A stretch of 64,000 bases of DNA from Flavobacterium alkalisoli (GTDB lineage Bacteria; Bacteroidota; Bacteroidia; Flavobacteriales; Flavobacteriaceae), in contig NZ_CP042831.1 in assembly GCF_008000935.1 (NCBI RefSeq), positions 1,922,001-1,986,000 of the forward strand. Reading direction: 5' to 3'. How positions within the stretch are numbered: position 1 is the stretch's first letter; every line of letters starts with the position of its first letter. This document shows, in pieces, positions 1,697 through 64,000 of this stretch. A program made the translations under genes and the position numbers. The notes beneath the pieces were generated by a model, which saw only the letters and a program-made list of their open reading frames with translations, had not been told where the DNA came from and ran no database searches.

Positions 1697-4180
1697 TTAA
1701 AGATTGTCTACTATATCTAAGAATTTAAGCCCGAACATTATACCGTCAGTTGCAAAGCCTCCCTGATAGGCCCTTACGTAATCTACCCTGAATACCCTGA
1801 ATTTACCAAAACCAATATTGTCAAATCCGGCGGTAAATTCATGATAGGGTTTGTAATCCGGCGTAGCGATGCCGTGATAGCCTACTACAAGATTCCATTG
1901 TAATTTATTAAGTAAAGGAACTTTGTTCATTATAAAGCCTTTAAAGTTGTGTTCTGCATGCGACTCAAAATAAGAATCGTTAGTGCTGTGAGAGTAATAA
2001 GGTAACAGGTTAAATGCATTAAGGTTTCCGTTGCCTGAGTTAACATGAGTTTGGTTGCCGTTAAAGTGCTTGTAGTCCATAAATGCAATATTATCTGCAT
2101 TAAAGAACTTACCTGCTTTTAGGTTGATGCCAAAATCACCTTTGTTACCTAAAGTAACATTATAAAAGGTTCTTGCAGCAATAAAATCATATTCATACTG
2201 ACTTTCACTAGCAGCAAAAGCTTTTGTATACTGTACTGCAATAGTAGGGTAGTTGGCTGTACTTACATTTATTTTGCCGTCAGGCCTTGTTATGTATTTT
2301 TGACCAAAACGCACAGTAGCATTAACAGTAGCCTCCATTAAATGATGGGTATCAAAAGCCGGAGTAGTATAATCGTTTGGTGCTAACGGATTGTTTGATG
2401 TATAGTCATGGTCATTTTTAATCAGTACATAATCTGTATTATTAAACAGCTGTTTACGTCTTAAATACTGAATTGATCCGCCCATATTTAAACCTGTAAA
2501 TACCTCTTTGCTATAGTTTAGCCTTGCGAAAGTCTTATCGTACAGTTTCATGTAATTATCCTTAAAGAATAATGTACTTACACTGTTTACAAACGGGCTT
2601 ATAGGCTGAGATGCATTAAACTGTTCGGTCTTGCTACCTCCGGATAGAGTGAAAATACCCACTTTGCCAAAACGGTGTGAGAACCATCCTGTAACCCTAA
2701 GCCTGTCTTCTGCAACACCATAATTAAAGTCAGCGCCTACAGAAGTATATTTTTTCGTGTCTTCATCATAATGACGGAATGAAAGTCCGCTTTTAAATAC
2801 CCAGCCCTGTACCGTGTTGTACATAGGGATTTGTAAAAGGCCGTCGTAGGTGTATCTTGTATTTTTAGCCGAGTTCCTGTAGGTATATCCTGAAATGATA
2901 TCTGTTAAATGGAGCTTGTTACTCTTTTTGTCAATTGAATCCAGATAAGCAGGAGATTTGTGAACGGTTTGTATACTGTCTTTTTTAAAGTAGTCGGTTA
3001 CCTCTTCATCGGTAAGAGGTATTGGCCTCATTGCCTGCCAGTATATTGAGTCTTTTTTGTTAGAATCTTCTTCTATATATACTATTTCCTTACCAAATGT
3101 TCCTTTTTCAAAATGGTCACGGAATACGTAATTATTGTAAACATGCGTAAATGTTCCCGAAATGCCTACGCCAAATATTCCTGCTTTTATATCAAAAGTC
3201 TGTGAGTTTTTAGCCCAAATCCTATTTGTGGTATTGTAACTGAAGTTTTGTTTAAGGTTAAGGTTTTCCAGTATCGGTTGCTGCATCCTGTATCCTTTAA
3301 TGTCAAAGTCAACCGCATAGATAGCCCAACTGTCGTCTACTATATAAATGTAGCCTTCAAAAACAGGCTCTTTATCGCGTCTTGGTATAACCTTAATTTT
3401 ACTTATAGAGTTGTTATTATCGTCAAAGAAAGTTCCCTCAAATTTGTATTTGTAGTAATTAAAGGCATTGTTAGCTAAAGGCGAAACCATTTTTATATTA
3501 AACTCTATATAGTTGTCATAAAAATTGTAATAAGTCCCTAAAGCAGTGTTATAGCTAAATCCGTTATCATTACCGCTTATTTTTGATGCTACTATGCGTT
3601 CTTTTAGATTGTTAGGTTGTTCAAAGGTAATTTTTGACACCGTTTCGGAGAGGTAAACAATTCCCGATCCTGTCGAGTCTAAAACAGAAGTCATTTCTTC
3701 ATCTTCAACCTTAACTCCCATAATTTTTGTAGGTACATTCTTTACCCTGAAAAGGCCTTTTGAATAGAAATCGGCCTCAAAACGGCCTGTCTTTTCTGAA
3801 TTTTCCTTTTTATGGGCAATGGCTTCCCTTATAATTCTGTTAGCCGGGTTTTCAGTATTTGATATAACTACTTCACTAAGGGTATAGGTTTCGTCCTGCA
3901 AAACAATATTAAGGGTGTGAGGTAAAGAAGTTATGTTGATTGTTTCTTTTTTGGTTTTAAAACCTATCGATTGGAATACTATTACATAAGTGCCGGTTTT
4001 TTTTATTCCCAGTTCATACACGCCTTCTTCGTTAGCAGTTGTTCCTGTATAGGTGTTTTCTATGCTCACACTTACAAAAGGTACAGGCTCACCATTGGTA
4101 GTGGTGATTTTTCCTTTAATTTGGGCAGAGGTATTTAGTGTGGTAAACAGTAATAATAAACAGGTAATTAGTTTGTACAT
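1697..4180 (-). CDS. DUF5686 / CarboxypepD_reg-like outer-membrane protein (first copy)
   Basis: An 827-residue exported protein of a Bacteroidota-specific family. Residues 1-19 are a Sec signal peptide ending NTSAQ. Residues 20-110 form the carboxypeptidase-regulatory-like beta-sandwich (GKITTTNGEPVPFVSVSIEN, then GTYVIVFQSIGFKTK) that fronts many outer-membrane proteins. The remainder is the DUF5686 region. It is rich in alternating aromatic residues and turns, and ends in an amphipathic beta-strand, as in a C-terminal outer-membrane barrel. No enzymatic motif is visible and the family role is unknown. It is clearly paralogous to the protein at 4574-7051; both carry SETVSKI, GFSYN, FFxDNYMKLYD and FNGNQTHV. 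The two lie on the same strand with a small opposing gene between them. Confidence 0.88.
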   Translation of the reverse strand: MYKLITCLLLLFTTLNTSAQIKGKITTTNGEPVPFVSVSIENTYTGTTANEEGVYELGIKKTGTYVIVFQSIGFKTKKETINITSLPHTLNIVLQDETYTLSEVVISNTENPANRIIREAIAHKKENSEKTGRFEADFYSKGLFRVKNVPTKIMGVKVEDEEMTSVLDSTGSGIVYLSETVSKITFEQPNNLKERIVASKISGNDNGFSYNTALGTYYNFYDNYIEFNIKMVSPLANNAFNYYKYKFEGTFFDDNNNSISKIKVIPRRDKEPVFEGYIYIVDDSWAIYAVDFDIKGYRMQQPILENLNLKQNFSYNTTNRIWAKNSQTFDIKAGIFGVGISGTFTHVYNNYVFRDHFEKGTFGKEIVYIEEDSNKKDSIYWQAMRPIPLTDEEVTDYFKKDSIQTVHKSPAYLDSIDKKSNKLHLTDIISGYTYRNSAKNTRYTYDGLLQIPMYNTVQGWVFKSGLSFRHYDEDTKKYTSVGADFNYGVAEDRLRVTGWFSHRFGKVGIFTLSGGSKTEQFNASQPISPFVNSVSTLFFKDNYMKLYDKTFARLNYSKEVFTGLNMGGSIQYLRRKQLFNNTDYVLIKNDHDYTSNNPLAPNDYTTPAFDTHHLMEATVNATVRFGQKYITRPDGKINVSTANYPTIAVQYTKAFAASESQYEYDFIAARTFYNVTLGNKGDFGINLKAGKFFNADNIAFMDYKHFNGNQTHVNSGNGNLNAFNLLPYYSHSTNDSYFESHAEHNFKGFIMNKVPLLNKLQWNLVVGYHGIATPDYKPYHEFTAGFDNIGFGKFRVFRVDYVRAYQGGFATDGIMFGLKFLDIVDNL

Positions 4181-59640: not shown

Positions 59641-60870
59641 ATGAAAAAACACCTTACATTTCTTTTTCTGTTGCTATCATATTTTTCTTATTCCCAATCG
59701 TGTACCTGTGAAGCTGAACTGGACGCTCTTTATGCAAATGTTCGTACACTAACATCCTATAAAACTCAATTAGGTGGTAAAAAATATGAGGAGTATAAGC
59801 GTACTTATGAGTTTTTAAGAAAAGAAGCAGAGAAACAGAAAGGGGTTTTACCCTGTCTTGTAATACTCTCAAAATTGCTTTATCCTATAATTAATGGTAA
59901 TATGGGAGTTTATCAAAAAGATTTTAAAAATCTGGGTAAAATGGAACAGGAGGTTATTACAGGTAAAAATGCCCATTTTTATGATGGTGAATATAAAAAG
60001 TATAATCCTGTTGTTAATGTTAATCTAGATTCGCTGGTTGAGGTTTTGAAAGACAAACCTGAATTTGATATTGAAGGGATATATGAACACAATTTATTAA
60101 AAGCTGCTGTATATCGTTCTAATGACAGTATTGTTGGTGTTATAATAGAGTCCGGTCATGCTAACTGGGAAAAGGGAAACCTGTTTTTTGTACTACATGA
60201 ACAATCTCCAAATAATTATTTTATTCTTACTGCTCTGGATTTTAATAATACGTATGAGTTTAGAAAGCATGAACGATTTTCAAATGGCAGGCTGGTTTTT
60301 TCAAGATGGTCTAAAAGCGATAAGAACTATTACTACGGACAACAGGGATATGGTATGCGTGTTGAGGAAGCAGAAAATATACAGAGCCTGATAATTGGCG
60401 TCGCAAAAAAATATGATGAAGAGACTGTTGCTTTTGTAACGGAAATAAACAAAACAGTTACTACTCCTGATATTATAATAGATATAAGAAATGACAGATA
60501 TGGCAGGGATAATTTATATAATCCACTTGCCCGATTTGTAAAAAAATATTCTAAAAAGAACAGGGTTTATATAATGGTTAATGCAGAAGTGATGAATGTG
60601 GCCGAAAGGTTTGTTGCCGATATTAAAGGTAAGGAGAATGTCTATATTTTGGGGGAGGCCACCAGTGGAGTTTTGGCTTATGGTTATAATAAAGATATGT
60701 CGGTGAAATCACAACTGGCCTGCGGTAATTTTGAATTTTATGCTGATAATAAAGAATATTCAGGATATTTGAACTATGAAGGAGTTGGTGTACAGCCTGA
60801 CTATATCCTTAGCCCTTATACTGATTGGATAGAACAAACCATAACTATTATAAAAAATAACCATGAGTAA
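59641..60870 (+). CDS. Exported S41-like (C-terminal processing protease-like) protein, probably inactive
   Basis: A 409-residue exported protein; signal peptide ends SYSQ. The C-terminal ~150 residues resemble the S41/CtpA core: PDIIIDIRNDRYGRDN matches the D-R strand, RVYIMVNAEVMNVAERFVAD aligns with the catalytic SxSxSE-type block, NVYILGEATSGV with the GE-T-G strand, and GVQPDYILSP with the GVxPD end. Asn stands where the nucleophilic Ser is expected (NVAERF), so peptidase activity is doubtful. The last codons overlap the next gene by 8 bases. Neighbours are two paralogous two-TM proteins; function unknown. Confidence 0.7.
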   Translation: MKKHLTFLFLLLSYFSYSQSCTCEAELDALYANVRTLTSYKTQLGGKKYEEYKRTYEFLRKEAEKQKGVLPCLVILSKLLYPIINGNMGVYQKDFKNLGKMEQEVITGKNAHFYDGEYKKYNPVVNVNLDSLVEVLKDKPEFDIEGIYEHNLLKAAVYRSNDSIVGVIIESGHANWEKGNLFFVLHEQSPNNYFILTALDFNNTYEFRKHERFSNGRLVFSRWSKSDKNYYYGQQGYGMRVEEAENIQSLIIGVAKKYDEETVAFVTEINKTVTTPDIIIDIRNDRYGRDNLYNPLARFVKKYSKKNRVYIMVNAEVMNVAERFVADIKGKENVYILGEATSGVLAYGYNKDMSVKSQLACGNFEFYADNKEYSGYLNYEGVGVQPDYILSPYTDWIEQTITIIKNNHE

Positions 60871-61528
60871 GATTACCACTTTTAAAAAATTTCCGGATAT
60901 AATACAGGCCAAAGAGCTTAAAGAGTTTTTAGAGCAAAATGGAATTGAAAGTTTCGTGAGTGATGGTAAGCCTTCGGTTGATAATAGCTTTGGGGGTGGT
61001 ATCCCTGTGGATTACGAGGTTAAAATAAAAGCTGTTGATTTTGAAAGGGCATCTTTACTAGTTGAAGAGAGGGTTAAGGAGACACTGGGAGATGTTGATA
61101 AGGATTATTACCTGTTTTCATTTACTAATGAAGAGTTATATGATGTTTTAATCAAACAGGACGAATGGAATGAGTTTGATTATCTTCTAGCCAGAAAACT
61201 TTTAACTGATAGGGGAAAGGTAATAGATGAGGATTTATTAAACAGCCTCAAGAAACAAAGAATTGCAGATTTTACAAAGCCTCAGCCTCATGAAAAAACG
61301 TGGATCTTTGCCGGTTATGTATTTGTATTAATGGGAGGTTTTTTAGGGATACTTATAGGGTATATGTTATGGGAATCTAAAACAACGCTGCCTGACAGAA
61401 GGGTCATCTATACTTATTCTCAAAAATCACGTAGTCACGGACTTATAATTTTTTGCCTGGGTATATTTTTGTCTGCTATTTACATATTAGGAATTTTTTT
61501 AGATGAATATATGATTAGCCTTTATTAA
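60863..61528 (+). CDS. Two-TM protein with DUF2007-like N-terminus (first paralogue)
   Basis: A 221-residue protein. N-terminal ~75 residues look like DUF2007/putative signal-transducing fold (FKKFPDIIQAKELKEFLEQN, then DYEVKIKAVDFERASLLVEE). A distinct middle block follows (LFSFTNEELYDVLIKQDEWN, FDYLLARKLLTDRGK). The C-terminus has two membrane helices (GYVFVLMGGFLGILIGYMLW, LIIFCLGIFLSAIYILGIF) with a RSHG loop between. It overlaps the S41-like gene by 8 bases, so it is translationally coupled to it. The same plan recurs at 61750. Function unknown. Confidence 0.75.
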   Translation: MSKITTFKKFPDIIQAKELKEFLEQNGIESFVSDGKPSVDNSFGGGIPVDYEVKIKAVDFERASLLVEERVKETLGDVDKDYYLFSFTNEELYDVLIKQDEWNEFDYLLARKLLTDRGKVIDEDLLNSLKKQRIADFTKPQPHEKTWIFAGYVFVLMGGFLGILIGYMLWESKTTLPDRRVIYTYSQKSRSHGLIIFCLGIFLSAIYILGIFLDEYMISLY

Positions 61529-61719
61529 GAATTTTAAAACTTTAATTTTAGTACTATTTTAAATATTAAAAAAGTGTTAAAGGGTTTAAAATGATATTGT
61601 TGGTTAAATTAACTTATCCGAAACCCGCATAAAGAAAGGACTTGTTAAAATTTCGTAATTTTTTTGTTATAATTTGCTGGTTATCTGATATGTAAATTAG
61701 GTTTTTAGAAGTGTTTTCC

Positions 61720-61727
61720 TATATTTG
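61720..61727 (+). promoter_or_regulatory. -7 element of the second two-TM gene
   Basis: TATATTTG followed by GAGGAC, 23 bases before the ATG at 61750. Confidence 0.5.
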
Positions 61728-61749
61728 GAGGACACCCAACTATAAACCA

Positions 61750-62382
61750 ATGGAAAAAACATTTACTACCTTTAAAACTATGCCCGATTTGGATCAGGCA
61801 AAAGAGATGAAACGTTTCCTGAGCAAAAACAACATCAGGAGTTTTTTAAACGACAATCATTCTACAGAGAAGTGCGAATTTGAAATCAAGGTTATGGCAA
61901 GCGATTATAATAGCGCTTCACAACTTGTAAAAGAAAGCACTGAGAAGATGATTGAAAAAGTGACCAGCGATTACTGCCTTTATTCTTTCAGCCAAAAGCA
62001 ACTTTATGATGTACTTCTTAACGAAGATGTATGGAGTGATTTTGATTATCTGTTAGCTAAGAAGATACTGAATGAAAAAGGACTTCCTACCGACAGTGAT
62101 TCTATTAGCAGACTAAGGGAAGAAAAAAAGAAAGACACTGCAAAGCCGGAATCTTCTCAGATTTTACACATCATGGGCGGTTACATTTTAGCCCTGATGG
62201 GAGGAGTTGCCGGTATTGTTATTGGCTTTTTAATGTGGAATTCTCAACGACAAATGCCAAACGGCATAACTGTATTCAGTTATAGTGAAGTGGAGAGAAG
62301 ACACGGAAGAATAATATTTGGACTTGGTATACTTATTTTTGTAATTGTACTTAGTATAAGATTAAGGCAAATACCGTTCTAG
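61750..62382 (+). CDS. Two-TM protein with DUF2007-like N-terminus (second paralogue)
   Basis: A 210-residue paralogue of the protein at 60863. Shared blocks: TFKTMPDLDQAKEMKRFL, LYSFSQKQLYDVLLNEDVW, FDYLLAKKILNEKG, the helix GGYILALMGGVAGIVIGFLM and RRHGRIIFGLGILIFVIVL. The start is the ATG at 61750, downstream of a -7 element. The stretch between the two paralogues (61529-61749) is AT-rich and holds no other gene. It overlaps the convergent pabA/trpG gene by 4 bases. Function unknown. Confidence 0.75.
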   Translation: MEKTFTTFKTMPDLDQAKEMKRFLSKNNIRSFLNDNHSTEKCEFEIKVMASDYNSASQLVKESTEKMIEKVTSDYCLYSFSQKQLYDVLLNEDVWSDFDYLLAKKILNEKGLPTDSDSISRLREEKKKDTAKPESSQILHIMGGYILALMGGVAGIVIGFLMWNSQRQMPNGITVFSYSEVERRHGRIIFGLGILIFVIVLSIRLRQIPF

Positions 62383-62948
62383 ATTTCCAGCCAGTTTTCC
62401 AGCATTTTTTTTCCGTTTGGAGTTAATACAGACTCCGGATGGAATTGTACCCCCCTTACATTATATGTTTTGTGGCGTAATGACATTATTTCGCCATTAT
62501 CGTCTACGGATGTTACTTCCAGTACTTCCGGGAAATTTTCTTTTGCCACACACCAGGAATGGTAGCGCCCCACACTTATTTCTTTTTCCAGGCCTTTAAA
62601 TAAAGGTTCATCGTCAACTAGTATAGAGATAGTAGTTGCAACGCCGTGATAAACAGTATCGAGGTTTATAAGCTTACCGCCAAAAACTTCGCCAATAGCC
62701 TGTTGACCTAAGCAAATACCCAATATGCTTTTATAAGGGGCATATTTTTTTATTACACTTTCAAGTAACCCTGCATTGGCCGGCACACCGGGACCGGGAG
62801 ATAACAATATCTTATCAAAATCCTCAGGGTCATCTAAGGAGAGTTCGTCATTTCTTAAAACAGTAACTTCACAGTTAAGGCTTTCCAGGTAGTGTACAAG
62901 GTTGTAAGTAAAGCTGTCGTAGTTATCTATTACCAGTATTTTCTTCAT
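62379..62948 (-). CDS. pabA: Glutamine amidotransferase, anthranilate/aminodeoxychorismate synthase component II
   Basis: A 189-residue class I glutaminase that supplies ammonia to a chorismate-using partner (TrpE or PabB). The catalytic triad Cys79 (GICLGQQAIGEVFGG), His170 and Glu172 (GVQFHPESVLTPNG) is intact, as are DNYDSFTYNLVHYL and LLSPGPGVPANAG. It stands alone without trpE or pabB, so assignment to folate (pabA) rather than tryptophan (trpG) is uncertain; some bacteria use one subunit for both. Start is the ATG at 62948. Divergent from cysE. Confidence 0.9.
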   Translation of the reverse strand: MKKILVIDNYDSFTYNLVHYLESLNCEVTVLRNDELSLDDPEDFDKILLSPGPGVPANAGLLESVIKKYAPYKSILGICLGQQAIGEVFGGKLINLDTVYHGVATTISILVDDEPLFKGLEKEISVGRYHSWCVAKENFPEVLEVTSVDDNGEIMSLRHKTYNVRGVQFHPESVLTPNGKKMLENWLEI

Positions 62949-63003
62949 ATGCATAGTGGTTTGCAAATGTATAAAACTTAGTGATAAAAAAATATCTTAA
63001 AAA

Positions 63004-63020
63004 TCTACTAAACTGGTAGA
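63004..63020. promoter_or_regulatory. Candidate operator in the pabA/cysE divergent promoter region
   Basis: TCTACTA and TGGTAGA are complementary (one wobble) with spacer AAC, at the place of the -33 element of the cysE leader promoter. A dimeric regulator could bind here. Confidence 0.4.
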
Positions 63021-63036
63021 CTATTAAAAAAATAAC

Positions 63037-63044
63037 TATATTTG
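63037..63044 (+). promoter_or_regulatory. -7 element of the cysE leader
   Basis: TATATTTG. Transcription should start near 63050, about 12 bases before the leader-peptide ATG and about 170 before the cysE ATG. Confidence 0.6.
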
Positions 63045-63062
63045 TTATGCACAAAAGAATAT

Positions 63063-63143
63063 ATGGCAGTTTTAACAAACAAGTGTATGGCGTGTATGTG
63101 TTTCTCTTTAAACGAGGAAGCACTTGCTGTACATGGAAATTAG
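63063..63143 (+). CDS. Candidate cysteine leader peptide (26 residues)
   Basis: An open frame ATG to TAG encodes MAVLTNKCMACMCFSLNEEA followed by LAVHGN. Cys8, Cys11 and Cys13 are all TGT codons (63084, 63093, 63099), and the peptide also has Met9 and Met12, so five of six consecutive-region codons 8-13 except Ala are sulphur amino acids. It precedes a terminator and the gene for serine O-acetyltransferase, the first enzyme of cysteine synthesis. This is what a leader that senses charged tRNA-Cys should look like. An alternative frame from ATG 63047 (45 codons, ending in the terminator loop) has Cys-Cys but begins at or before the expected transcript start. Confidence 0.7.
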   Translation: MAVLTNKCMACMCFSLNEEALAVHGN

Positions 63144-63202
63144 GTTCAAACCTAAACAGTAAACAGTTAGTGAGCTCCTCGTAACCCGAGGAGCTTTTTT
63201 TA
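63113..63202 (+). promoter_or_regulatory. Candidate transcription attenuator (antiterminator versus terminator)
   Basis: The terminator is AGCTCCTCG (63173-63181) paired with CGAGGAGCT (63187-63195), then T. In the leader, CGAGGAAGC (63113-63121) is almost identical to the terminator 3' arm and can pair instead with GCTCCTCG, giving an alternative antiterminator. The segment starts 12 bases after the last Cys codon, so a ribosome stalled at a Cys codon would leave it mostly free, whereas a ribosome running to the stop would cover it. A small TAGGT/ACCTA hairpin lies between them. Confidence 0.7.
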
Positions 63203-63222
63203 TTTAAATATTTAGCATTATT

Positions 63223-64000
63223 ATGAAACATCCCGTTTATACCGCAAATTATCTGAAATCGGGTGTGCTGCCCGATAAGCAGAAAACAGGTTACTGGATA
63301 GAGGAATTTTTTCAGTGGCTGTTTTGTATAGGTCCGCAATATGCCGATTATGATTTCTTTTTAAAGAAGGAGCAGGAACTCGACGGACTACTATCTGATT
63401 TACTATGCCTTTCCGGGCTGGAAGAAGAAAAAATTCAACCGTTGCTACTTCATCTTAAAGATAAGATAGTAACACTCCATGAAAAAATGGAAGACAGTCT
63501 TAAGGCTATTTTTGCTTTTGATCCTGCAGCTAAGTCAAGAACCGAAGTGTTGGTTTCTTATCCCGGTTTTTTTGCCATAGCCATTTACCGTATTGCTCAC
63601 GAATTATGGATTAATAATGTACCTGTACTGCCCAGGCTTATTAGTGAATATGTGCATGGTAGGACAGGTATAGATATTCATCCCGGGGCAGCTATAGGTG
63701 ACAGATTTTTTATAGACCATGGAACCGGTATTGTAATAGGGGAAACCTCAGTAATAGGCAACGACGTAAAAATATATCAGGGAGTAACATTAGGGGCTTT
63801 AAGCGTACATAAAGAAGAAGCTTCTGTTAAGCGCCATCCTACCATAGGCAACAGAGTTACCATTTATGCCAACGCAACCATTTTGGGAGGCAATACCATT
63901 GTGGGCGACGATTCTGTAATAGGAGGTAACGTATGGATTACTAATTCCATACCGGCTCATTCTTTGGTATATCATAAAAGTGAAATAACTATAAAAACGA
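63223..64000 (+). CDS. cysE: Serine O-acetyltransferase, partial (cut by window end)
   Basis: The first 259 codons of a hexapeptide-repeat acetyltransferase making O-acetyl-L-serine from serine and acetyl-CoA, the committed step of cysteine synthesis. After a helical N-terminal domain, the family signature appears: [18 protein letters not shown], then [49 protein letters not shown], and [20 protein letters not shown]. The catalytic His and Asp of the HG and Asp-His region (HPG; IDHGTG) are present. The 3' end and any following cysK lie outside the window. It is preceded by a candidate attenuator. Confidence 0.94.

Follow-up and report, generated by a model that had tools for sequence, protein, structure and literature searches.

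The 3' end of the analysed stretch of a Flavobacterium chromosome (G000:C1:1922001-1986000; 64,000 nt, hereafter the window) raises the question of how expression of cysE, the gene for serine O-acetyltransferase, responds to amino acid supply. The initial annotation had proposed a ribosome-mediated cysteine attenuator in front of this gene. We examined the leader in the window, compared it with the upstream regions of sulfur genes in related genomes and weighed attenuation against other readings of the same sequences.

Layout of the leader upstream of cysE

The cysE gene occupies positions 63223-63999 of the + strand and continues beyond the window end. Its product scored 176.9 bits with NCBIfam model TIGR01172, below the cut-off of 210.65, and 152.2 bits with NF041874 (EpsC), just over the cut-off of 150. 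Among named genomes, the closest CysE is 97% identical and belongs to a strain labelled F. beibuense. The next gene 3' of cysE, outside the window, encodes a cysteine synthase; it is a 97% match to the cysteine synthase of locus L032, which was assigned to TIGR01139 (cysK) above the cut-off. The gene 5' of the leader (62379-62966) lies on the opposite strand, so no adjacent + strand gene ends at the terminator described below. Further upstream, two similar neighbouring genes of about 222 codons each (60863-61528 and 61711-62382) appear by eye to be a tandem duplication.

The -7 element listed in the initial annotation is present as TATATTTG at 63037-63044 (+ strand), a match to the consensus TAnnTTTG. 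With the -12 to -5 spacing quoted in a passage of PMC9723704, the transcription start would fall at about 63049. The leader peptide frame MAVLTNKCMACMCFSLNEEALAVHGN extends over 63063-63143 of the + strand, with ATG at 63063 and the stop codon TAG at 63141-63143; as annotated, it has 26 codons. Its regulatory codons (63084-63101, + strand) read C-M-A-C-M-C within the peptide core KCMACMC and comprise three TGT codons (63084, 63093 and 63099), spanning at most six codons, and two ATG codons (codons 9 and 12). An alternative ATG frame at 63047 was rejected, since it starts 2 nt before the inferred transcription start and should thus be absent from the transcript.

An intrinsic terminator at 63172-63196 forms 10 pairs between its 5' arm GAGCTCCTCG (63172-63181) and 3' arm CGAGGAGCTT (63187-63196) and continues into a T run that ends at 63201, all on the + strand. 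It therefore stands between the frame and the structural gene, as predicted, at 26 nt from the cysE ATG instead of the 28 given in the initial annotation. The 5' arm has an alternative partner, the putative antiterminator segment CGAGGAAGC at 63113-63121 (+ strand), with which it forms a duplex of -12.2 kcal/mol, in agreement with the pairing first noticed there. The leader RNA was predicted to fold more stably than all of 200 shuffled versions (z = -3.41). Two terminator-like sites were counted in the 1.6 kb around the leader, compared with 1.4 (sd 1.0) in shuffles; such sites being common in shuffles, the terminator alone is weak evidence, which does not hold for the combination of elements. 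Rfam gave nothing over the gathering score at the window leader, only three sub-threshold chance matches.

Cys-rich frames and terminators upstream of cysE

Conservation of the short frame among relatives had been named at the outset as a point on which attenuation would stand or fall. The cysE loci comprised the best 80 of 201 confirmed from named genomes and the 30 best each from genomes of the genus, the family and the class, a few of them repeated. Strand and start were set by tblastn for the 178 loci with a cysE match, 177 regions were long enough, and removal of near-duplicates left 140 upstream regions. We searched these for an ATG-initiated short frame with at least three Cys codons in six, followed by a hairpin with a T tract. 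Frame and terminator occurred together in 25 of the 140 non-redundant regions, the window's copy included, and in none of the regions of any of ten dinucleotide shuffles. With the same filter, the other 19 residues gave zero to five regions each, except Leu with 11. L144, which is among the 25, lacks the pairing (+1.9), has its segment at 4 nt and was counted as chance.

Cys and Met codons in the leader frames

A further check suggested for the short frame concerned third-position substitutions. In nine leaders of the CxxCC type, the ratios of TGC to TGT at the three Cys columns are 6/3, 1/8 and 1/8. Both codons thus occur at every column, so that the third base changes and the residue does not, although two of the three columns vary by a single TGC each.

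Met codons also belong to the pattern. After the first Cys of the cluster, 34 leaders contain 23 ATG triplets in frame and 0 and 1 in the other two frames, with 4.64 per frame expected from composition. Since these codons follow the first Cys of the cluster, they cannot be starts of a frame that includes it. They account for 23 of the 139 non-Cys residues after that position and are found in 14 of the 34 leaders. Counted without the start codon, the Met share differs according to the downstream gene: 42 of 768 residues before cysE (29 leaders), 21 of 218 before cysH (8 leaders) and 25 of 138 before metY (5 leaders, one of them drawn by an ATG-containing pattern). The single cysC leader, with 4 of 22 residues, equals those of metY in richness. 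Met is therefore denser before metY than before cysE, and the second metY leaders are rich in it, as in MNVIAKNMMSCMMMHMMMCCIGICYYQKRKT and MKTIGNKITMCCMMMCMCIPIYYCLKWRI. On these sequences, the putative attenuator probably senses methionine besides cysteine. The Cys codon clusters agree with the cysteine signal that was originally suggested; as a cysteine-only signal it is probably too narrow, because Met is enriched and because leaders also precede cysH, cysD, cysC and metY.

Pairing between the leader segment and the terminator

The pairing analysis covered 34 non-redundant leaders (25 of cysE, eight of cysH and one of cysC, L302); no energy filter was applied and none was dropped. The stretch from the last Cys codon to the terminator paired with its own 5' arm at a mean of -11.57 kcal/mol. 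With swapped terminators the mean was -8.06 (sd 0.42) kcal/mol and the best of 50,000 permutations gave -9.91, so none of them reached the mean of the own pairs in these leaders of diverse sequence; mono-shuffled stretches gave -5.7 with the terminator arm. When the set was enlarged to 43 leaders by including those of metY, again 0 of 50,000 permutations did so. For instance, segment and arm read CGCAGAGGA and AACCTCTGTT in L265, CTGAGGGGTTA and AAAGACTCCTCAA in L262, TGGGACA and GAGTCCCTC in L066, and CGGAAGGGCTTA and AAAAGGTCTTTCCA in L302. The pairing, which is mutually exclusive with the terminator hairpin, thus co-varies with the terminator among relatives, as the initial annotation had anticipated.

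The position of the segment is also regular. It starts 4-24 nt past the first base of the last Cys codon (median 15, n = 34), and 31 of the 34 own pairs start within 11-21 nt, compared with 342 of 1,700 shuffled stretches (20%). Swapped pairs share this regularity (734 of 1,122, or 65%), as expected if the segment position is fixed, so the distance is not independent proof. The exceptions are L144 (4 nt), L093 (7 nt) and the second leader of L261 (24 nt), whose pairing is weak (-5.1). A ribosome with the last Cys codon in its A site ends, by the size of its footprint, about where the segment begins. A ribosome that stalls on the regulatory codons would thus just leave the segment uncovered; in the window the distance is 14 nt.

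Genes and lineages with Cys/Met leaders

A joint descriptor (at least three Cys in six codons, a terminator, pairing of -8 or lower and a segment within 27 nt) was scanned over both strands of 309 loci (1.43 Mb). Among its 51 matches, 32 were non-redundant: 25 before cysE, six before cysH and one before cysC. The reversed sequence of the 309 loci gave none. The descriptor was set after the examples and the loci lie mostly around sulfur genes, so this result describes specificity within those loci and not genome-wide.

A relaxed descriptor (at least two Cys, pairing of -7.5 or lower) placed a leader directly 5' of cysE in nine of 30 Flavobacterium loci (L002-L031), seven of these nine leaders having three or more Cys. 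In seven of the other 21 loci, cysE is preceded on its own strand by cysH and cysD; the gene order in L261 is cysH, cysD, cysN-like, cysE, cysteine synthase, and the coordinates agree in the other six. All seven of these genomes carry leaders before cysH, five of them two in series. Thirteen other sulfate-operon regions were without a leader, including that of the window's own genome, save for a spurious-looking match in L275 that was counted as chance.

The pattern TGYAAYATGTGYTGY was searched in 299 genomes of the genus, from which 30 loci were taken. By itself it showed no enrichment in these genomes, the backward control having more matches, and only structure-filtered matches were used. 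Nine of the 30 loci structurally carry a leader (four before metY, two before cysH, one before cysD and two before cysE) and 21 do not; three of the nine (L322, L332 and L339) are places found otherwise too. Because the pattern includes an ATG in frame, it biases the first leaders of this set towards Met; the second leaders, those of metY, were not selected by it. NCBIfam assigns metY of L310 and L311 to TIGR01326 over the cut-off and also names cysD of L328, cysH of L318 and L261 and cysC of L302. The remaining downstream genes were named by N-terminal likeness.

Flavobacterium aside, leaders were found in metagenome-assembled genomes labelled Bacteroidales (L050, L052, L057, L063 and L070), Bacteroidetes bacterium (L051 and L054) and Saprospiraceae (L093), and in other families of the class (L174, L178, L194 and L302). 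The relaxed descriptor detected a leader before cysE in one of 28 loci of the family sample and in four of 28 of the class sample, one of the four being Flavobacterium. The distribution in Bacteroidota is patchy.

Several loci carry two leader-terminator units in series. The scan detected this arrangement in L050, L057, L061, L063, L066, L262, L263, L264 and L267; in L261 a second unit is visible that failed the energy limit of the scan. The element TAnnTTTG was found before the first unit in seven of the nine tandem loci, all but L061 and L264, and it is absent in all nine from the stretch that separates the first terminator from the second leader. The lack of a promoter element between the units fits serial readthrough. 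All four metY loci likewise have two frames with terminators in series; L337 is the only one in which both units pass the joint descriptor.

Rfam scans of 16 relative loci gave no cis-regulatory RNA over the gathering score at the leaders themselves. In six of the 16 loci scanned, SAM-II riboswitches (RF01726) occur on the strand opposite to the Cys/Met leader: within about 300 nt of it in L310 (1708-1811, + strand), L318 (1176-1236, - strand), L328 (1770-1862, + strand) and L058 (2438-2517, - strand), and about 3 kb away in L261 (1515-1575, - strand) and L263 (10018-10101, + strand). In some loci, sensors of SAM and of Cys/Met codons may stand back to back.

Proposed mechanism

Taken from the comparative sequence evidence, the cysE leader is very probably a ribosome-mediated transcription attenuator, as originally proposed: Cys clusters are kept despite changing peptides, and segment and terminator co-vary. 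When charged tRNA-Cys, and probably also tRNA-Met, is scarce, a ribosome would stall in the codon cluster and leave the segment free; the segment would capture the 5' arm ahead of synthesis of the 3' arm, and transcription would continue. With ample supply the ribosome would move on, the segment would be covered or paired elsewhere, and the terminator would form and stop transcription. The same device, single or serial, would operate in relatives before cysE, before the sulfate-assimilation genes cysH, cysD and cysC, and before metY.

We modelled the folding of 31 leaders (L144 excluded) at the stage when the 3' arm is still missing and computed how many arm-segment pairs are to be expected. 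The mean was 8.6 pairs for a ribosome stalled at the last Cys codon, 5.6 for RNA free of ribosomes and 3.0 for a ribosome that has reached the stop codon. From the stalled state to the stop codon the number dropped by at least two pairs in 25 of the 31 leaders, and from the stalled state to no ribosome in only 15. The proposal that the ribosome covers the segment when cysteine is ample thus agrees with the model for most leaders, but the modelled states of the window copy hardly differ, with 7.5 pairs in the stalled state, 7.5 without a ribosome and 6.7 with a ribosome at the stop. How the window copy would be switched off is not clear from this simple model. Its stop codon begins 20 nt past the segment, so the off state may need a ribosome that traverses the segment during the passage of RNA polymerase through the terminator, or one that is trapped in the loop and there hinders pairing of the segment. 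Modelled as full-length RNA, the leaders favour the terminator in almost all states (means between 10.4 and 10.9 terminator pairs); switching would therefore need to be kinetic.

A broader reading, which we consider somewhat favoured, is a sulfur-amino-acid attenuation regulon of Bacteroidota in which mixed Cys/Met leaders, often serial, would read both tRNAs and gate sulfate assimilation and the synthesis of cysteine and methionine. Their Met content would be tuned to the gene, being high before metY, as in MNVIAKNMMSCMMMHMMMCCIGICYYQKRKT.

Alternative explanations

Terminator-like sites alone are common and L144 shows that such matches arise, which might suggest that a short ORF, a hairpin and a partial repeat came together by chance. 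With no hits in each of the 10 shuffles, in the 50,000 permutations and in the reversed sequence, that explanation is already contradicted at the level of sequence and its probability is negligible; the leader elements upstream of cysE are, by the same comparisons, not a chance assembly. Another alternative is that a Cys/Met-rich nascent or free peptide responds to redox state or metal and halts the ribosome, the codons not being tRNA sensors. The RNA switch would look identical, and Cys runs such as CCCCCC (L050 and L057) could bind metal or oxidise. Nevertheless, the 34 leader peptides share little except Cys and Met, their spacing is variable, NCBIfam returned no match for nine of ten leader peptides and one implausible sub-cut-off match for the tenth, and the leaders precede genes of cysteine, sulfate or methionine synthesis. 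We regard a peptide effect of this kind as unlikely.

It is very unlikely that control is translational, with the hairpin hiding the cysE start as in mycobacterial poly-Cys uORFs and no end of transcription. Passages of PMC13236596 describe translation attenuation for mycobacterial cysteine genes; against its extension to these leaders, a hairpin with a T tract and a Cys frame occur together in 25 of the 140 regions and the first unit of tandem loci is far from the start codon. Regulation of cysE by a transcription factor at an upstream palindrome alone would make the terminator a constitutive brake and the short frame incidental. The palindrome is indeed kept in close relatives, also in L038 with its degraded-looking leader, and a similar one stands in L035 without a Cys frame (both by eye). 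Yet this account has to face the shuffle and permutation results as well as the leaders before cysH, cysC and metY, and we rate it as highly improbable.

Comparison with known systems

Classical ribosome-mediated attenuators are represented by the trp, his, leu, thr, ilv and phe leaders of Proteobacteria. They have in common with the present leaders a cluster of codons for the product residue, an antiterminator that competes with a terminator, and the position of the terminator before the operon. The leaders described here differ in the Cys with Met signal, the Bacteroidota host, the serial pairs in several loci and, in some copies including that of the window, a frame that runs through the antiterminator segment. 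A leaderless poly-Cys frame was reportedly described by Canestrari in 2020, as the title has it; in the window, the promoter motif would place the transcription start 14 nt 5' of the ATG. For Actinobacteria, Seliverstov 2005 (PMC1262725) presented, in the passages on this point, candidate Cys leaders with no obvious terminators, and the M. smegmatis poly-Cys case is termed translation attenuation in a passage of PMC13236596. Short frames with Cys runs 5' of cys operons are common to both groups; in contrast to the actinobacterial leaders, those found here, the window's among them, have a terminator and an antiterminator, and Met codons join the Cys codons.

Within the same phylum, leader-peptide attenuation has been put forward from transcriptomes: passages of PMC9723704 suggest such attenuators 5' of amino-acid operons in Flavobacterium psychrophilum, and passages of PMC7366714 propose them for short ORFs in long 5'UTRs of Bacteroides thetaiotaomicron. 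A term search of the main texts of these two papers gave no cysteine operon. In the main text of PMC9723704 'cysteine' occurs once (a protease) and 'cysE' is absent; that of PMC7366714 has 'cysteine' three times, one passage concerning the culture medium. The initial annotation knew of no described cysteine attenuator in Flavobacteriia, and our full-text literature search, which covered main texts of mostly openly accessible papers, likewise recognised no cysteine or cysteine-methionine transcription attenuator in Bacteroidota, so this absence is not proof.

Judging from the sequences compared, the new elements would be a cysteine signal with a full terminator in Bacteroidota, likely co-sensing of methionine, serial leaders and a reach to metY. 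The literature searched gives no account of RNA-based sensing of cysteine supply in this phylum. The proposed mechanism is specific and testable, and it could connect sulfate assimilation to the synthesis of cysteine and methionine. Through it, cysteine would join the signals of classical transcription attenuation, complete with terminator and antiterminator, and dual-codon sensing and serial gates are suggested. Whether the coupling of transcription and translation in Bacteroidota is tight enough for attenuation could also be tested on these leaders.

Putative operator palindrome

The palindrome TCTACTAAACTGGTAGACT at 63004-63022 (no strand assigned), a possible transcription-factor operator, lies 5' of the cysE promoter and overlaps its inferred -33 region. 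Similar palindromes precede the promoter in 11 of 12 close relatives (L032-L043; the regular expression missed L035). The exact match, TCTACTAANNNNGTAGACT, is unique in its own genome. Allowing two mismatches gave seven other places in the genome, and the backward control pattern gave six in all, a similar number; no clear palindrome regulon emerged from the seven sites. One of them (L167) precedes, by eye, a redoxin-like gene. In L035 and L038, upstream of cysE (about 2650-3000), the palindrome and promoter are kept and hairpin-like sequence remains (by eye), the Cys frame being missing or degraded; loss of the attenuator is possible there. A gene for an Rrf2-family regulator (L260, 3533-3943; TIGR00738 over the cut-off) is located just 5' of the sulfate operon of the window's genome, and the IscR and CymR models match it below the cut-off. 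Any link between this regulator and the cysE palindrome is a lead only. At about 3960-4000 of L260, a long palindrome overlaps a TAnnTTTG element (by eye).
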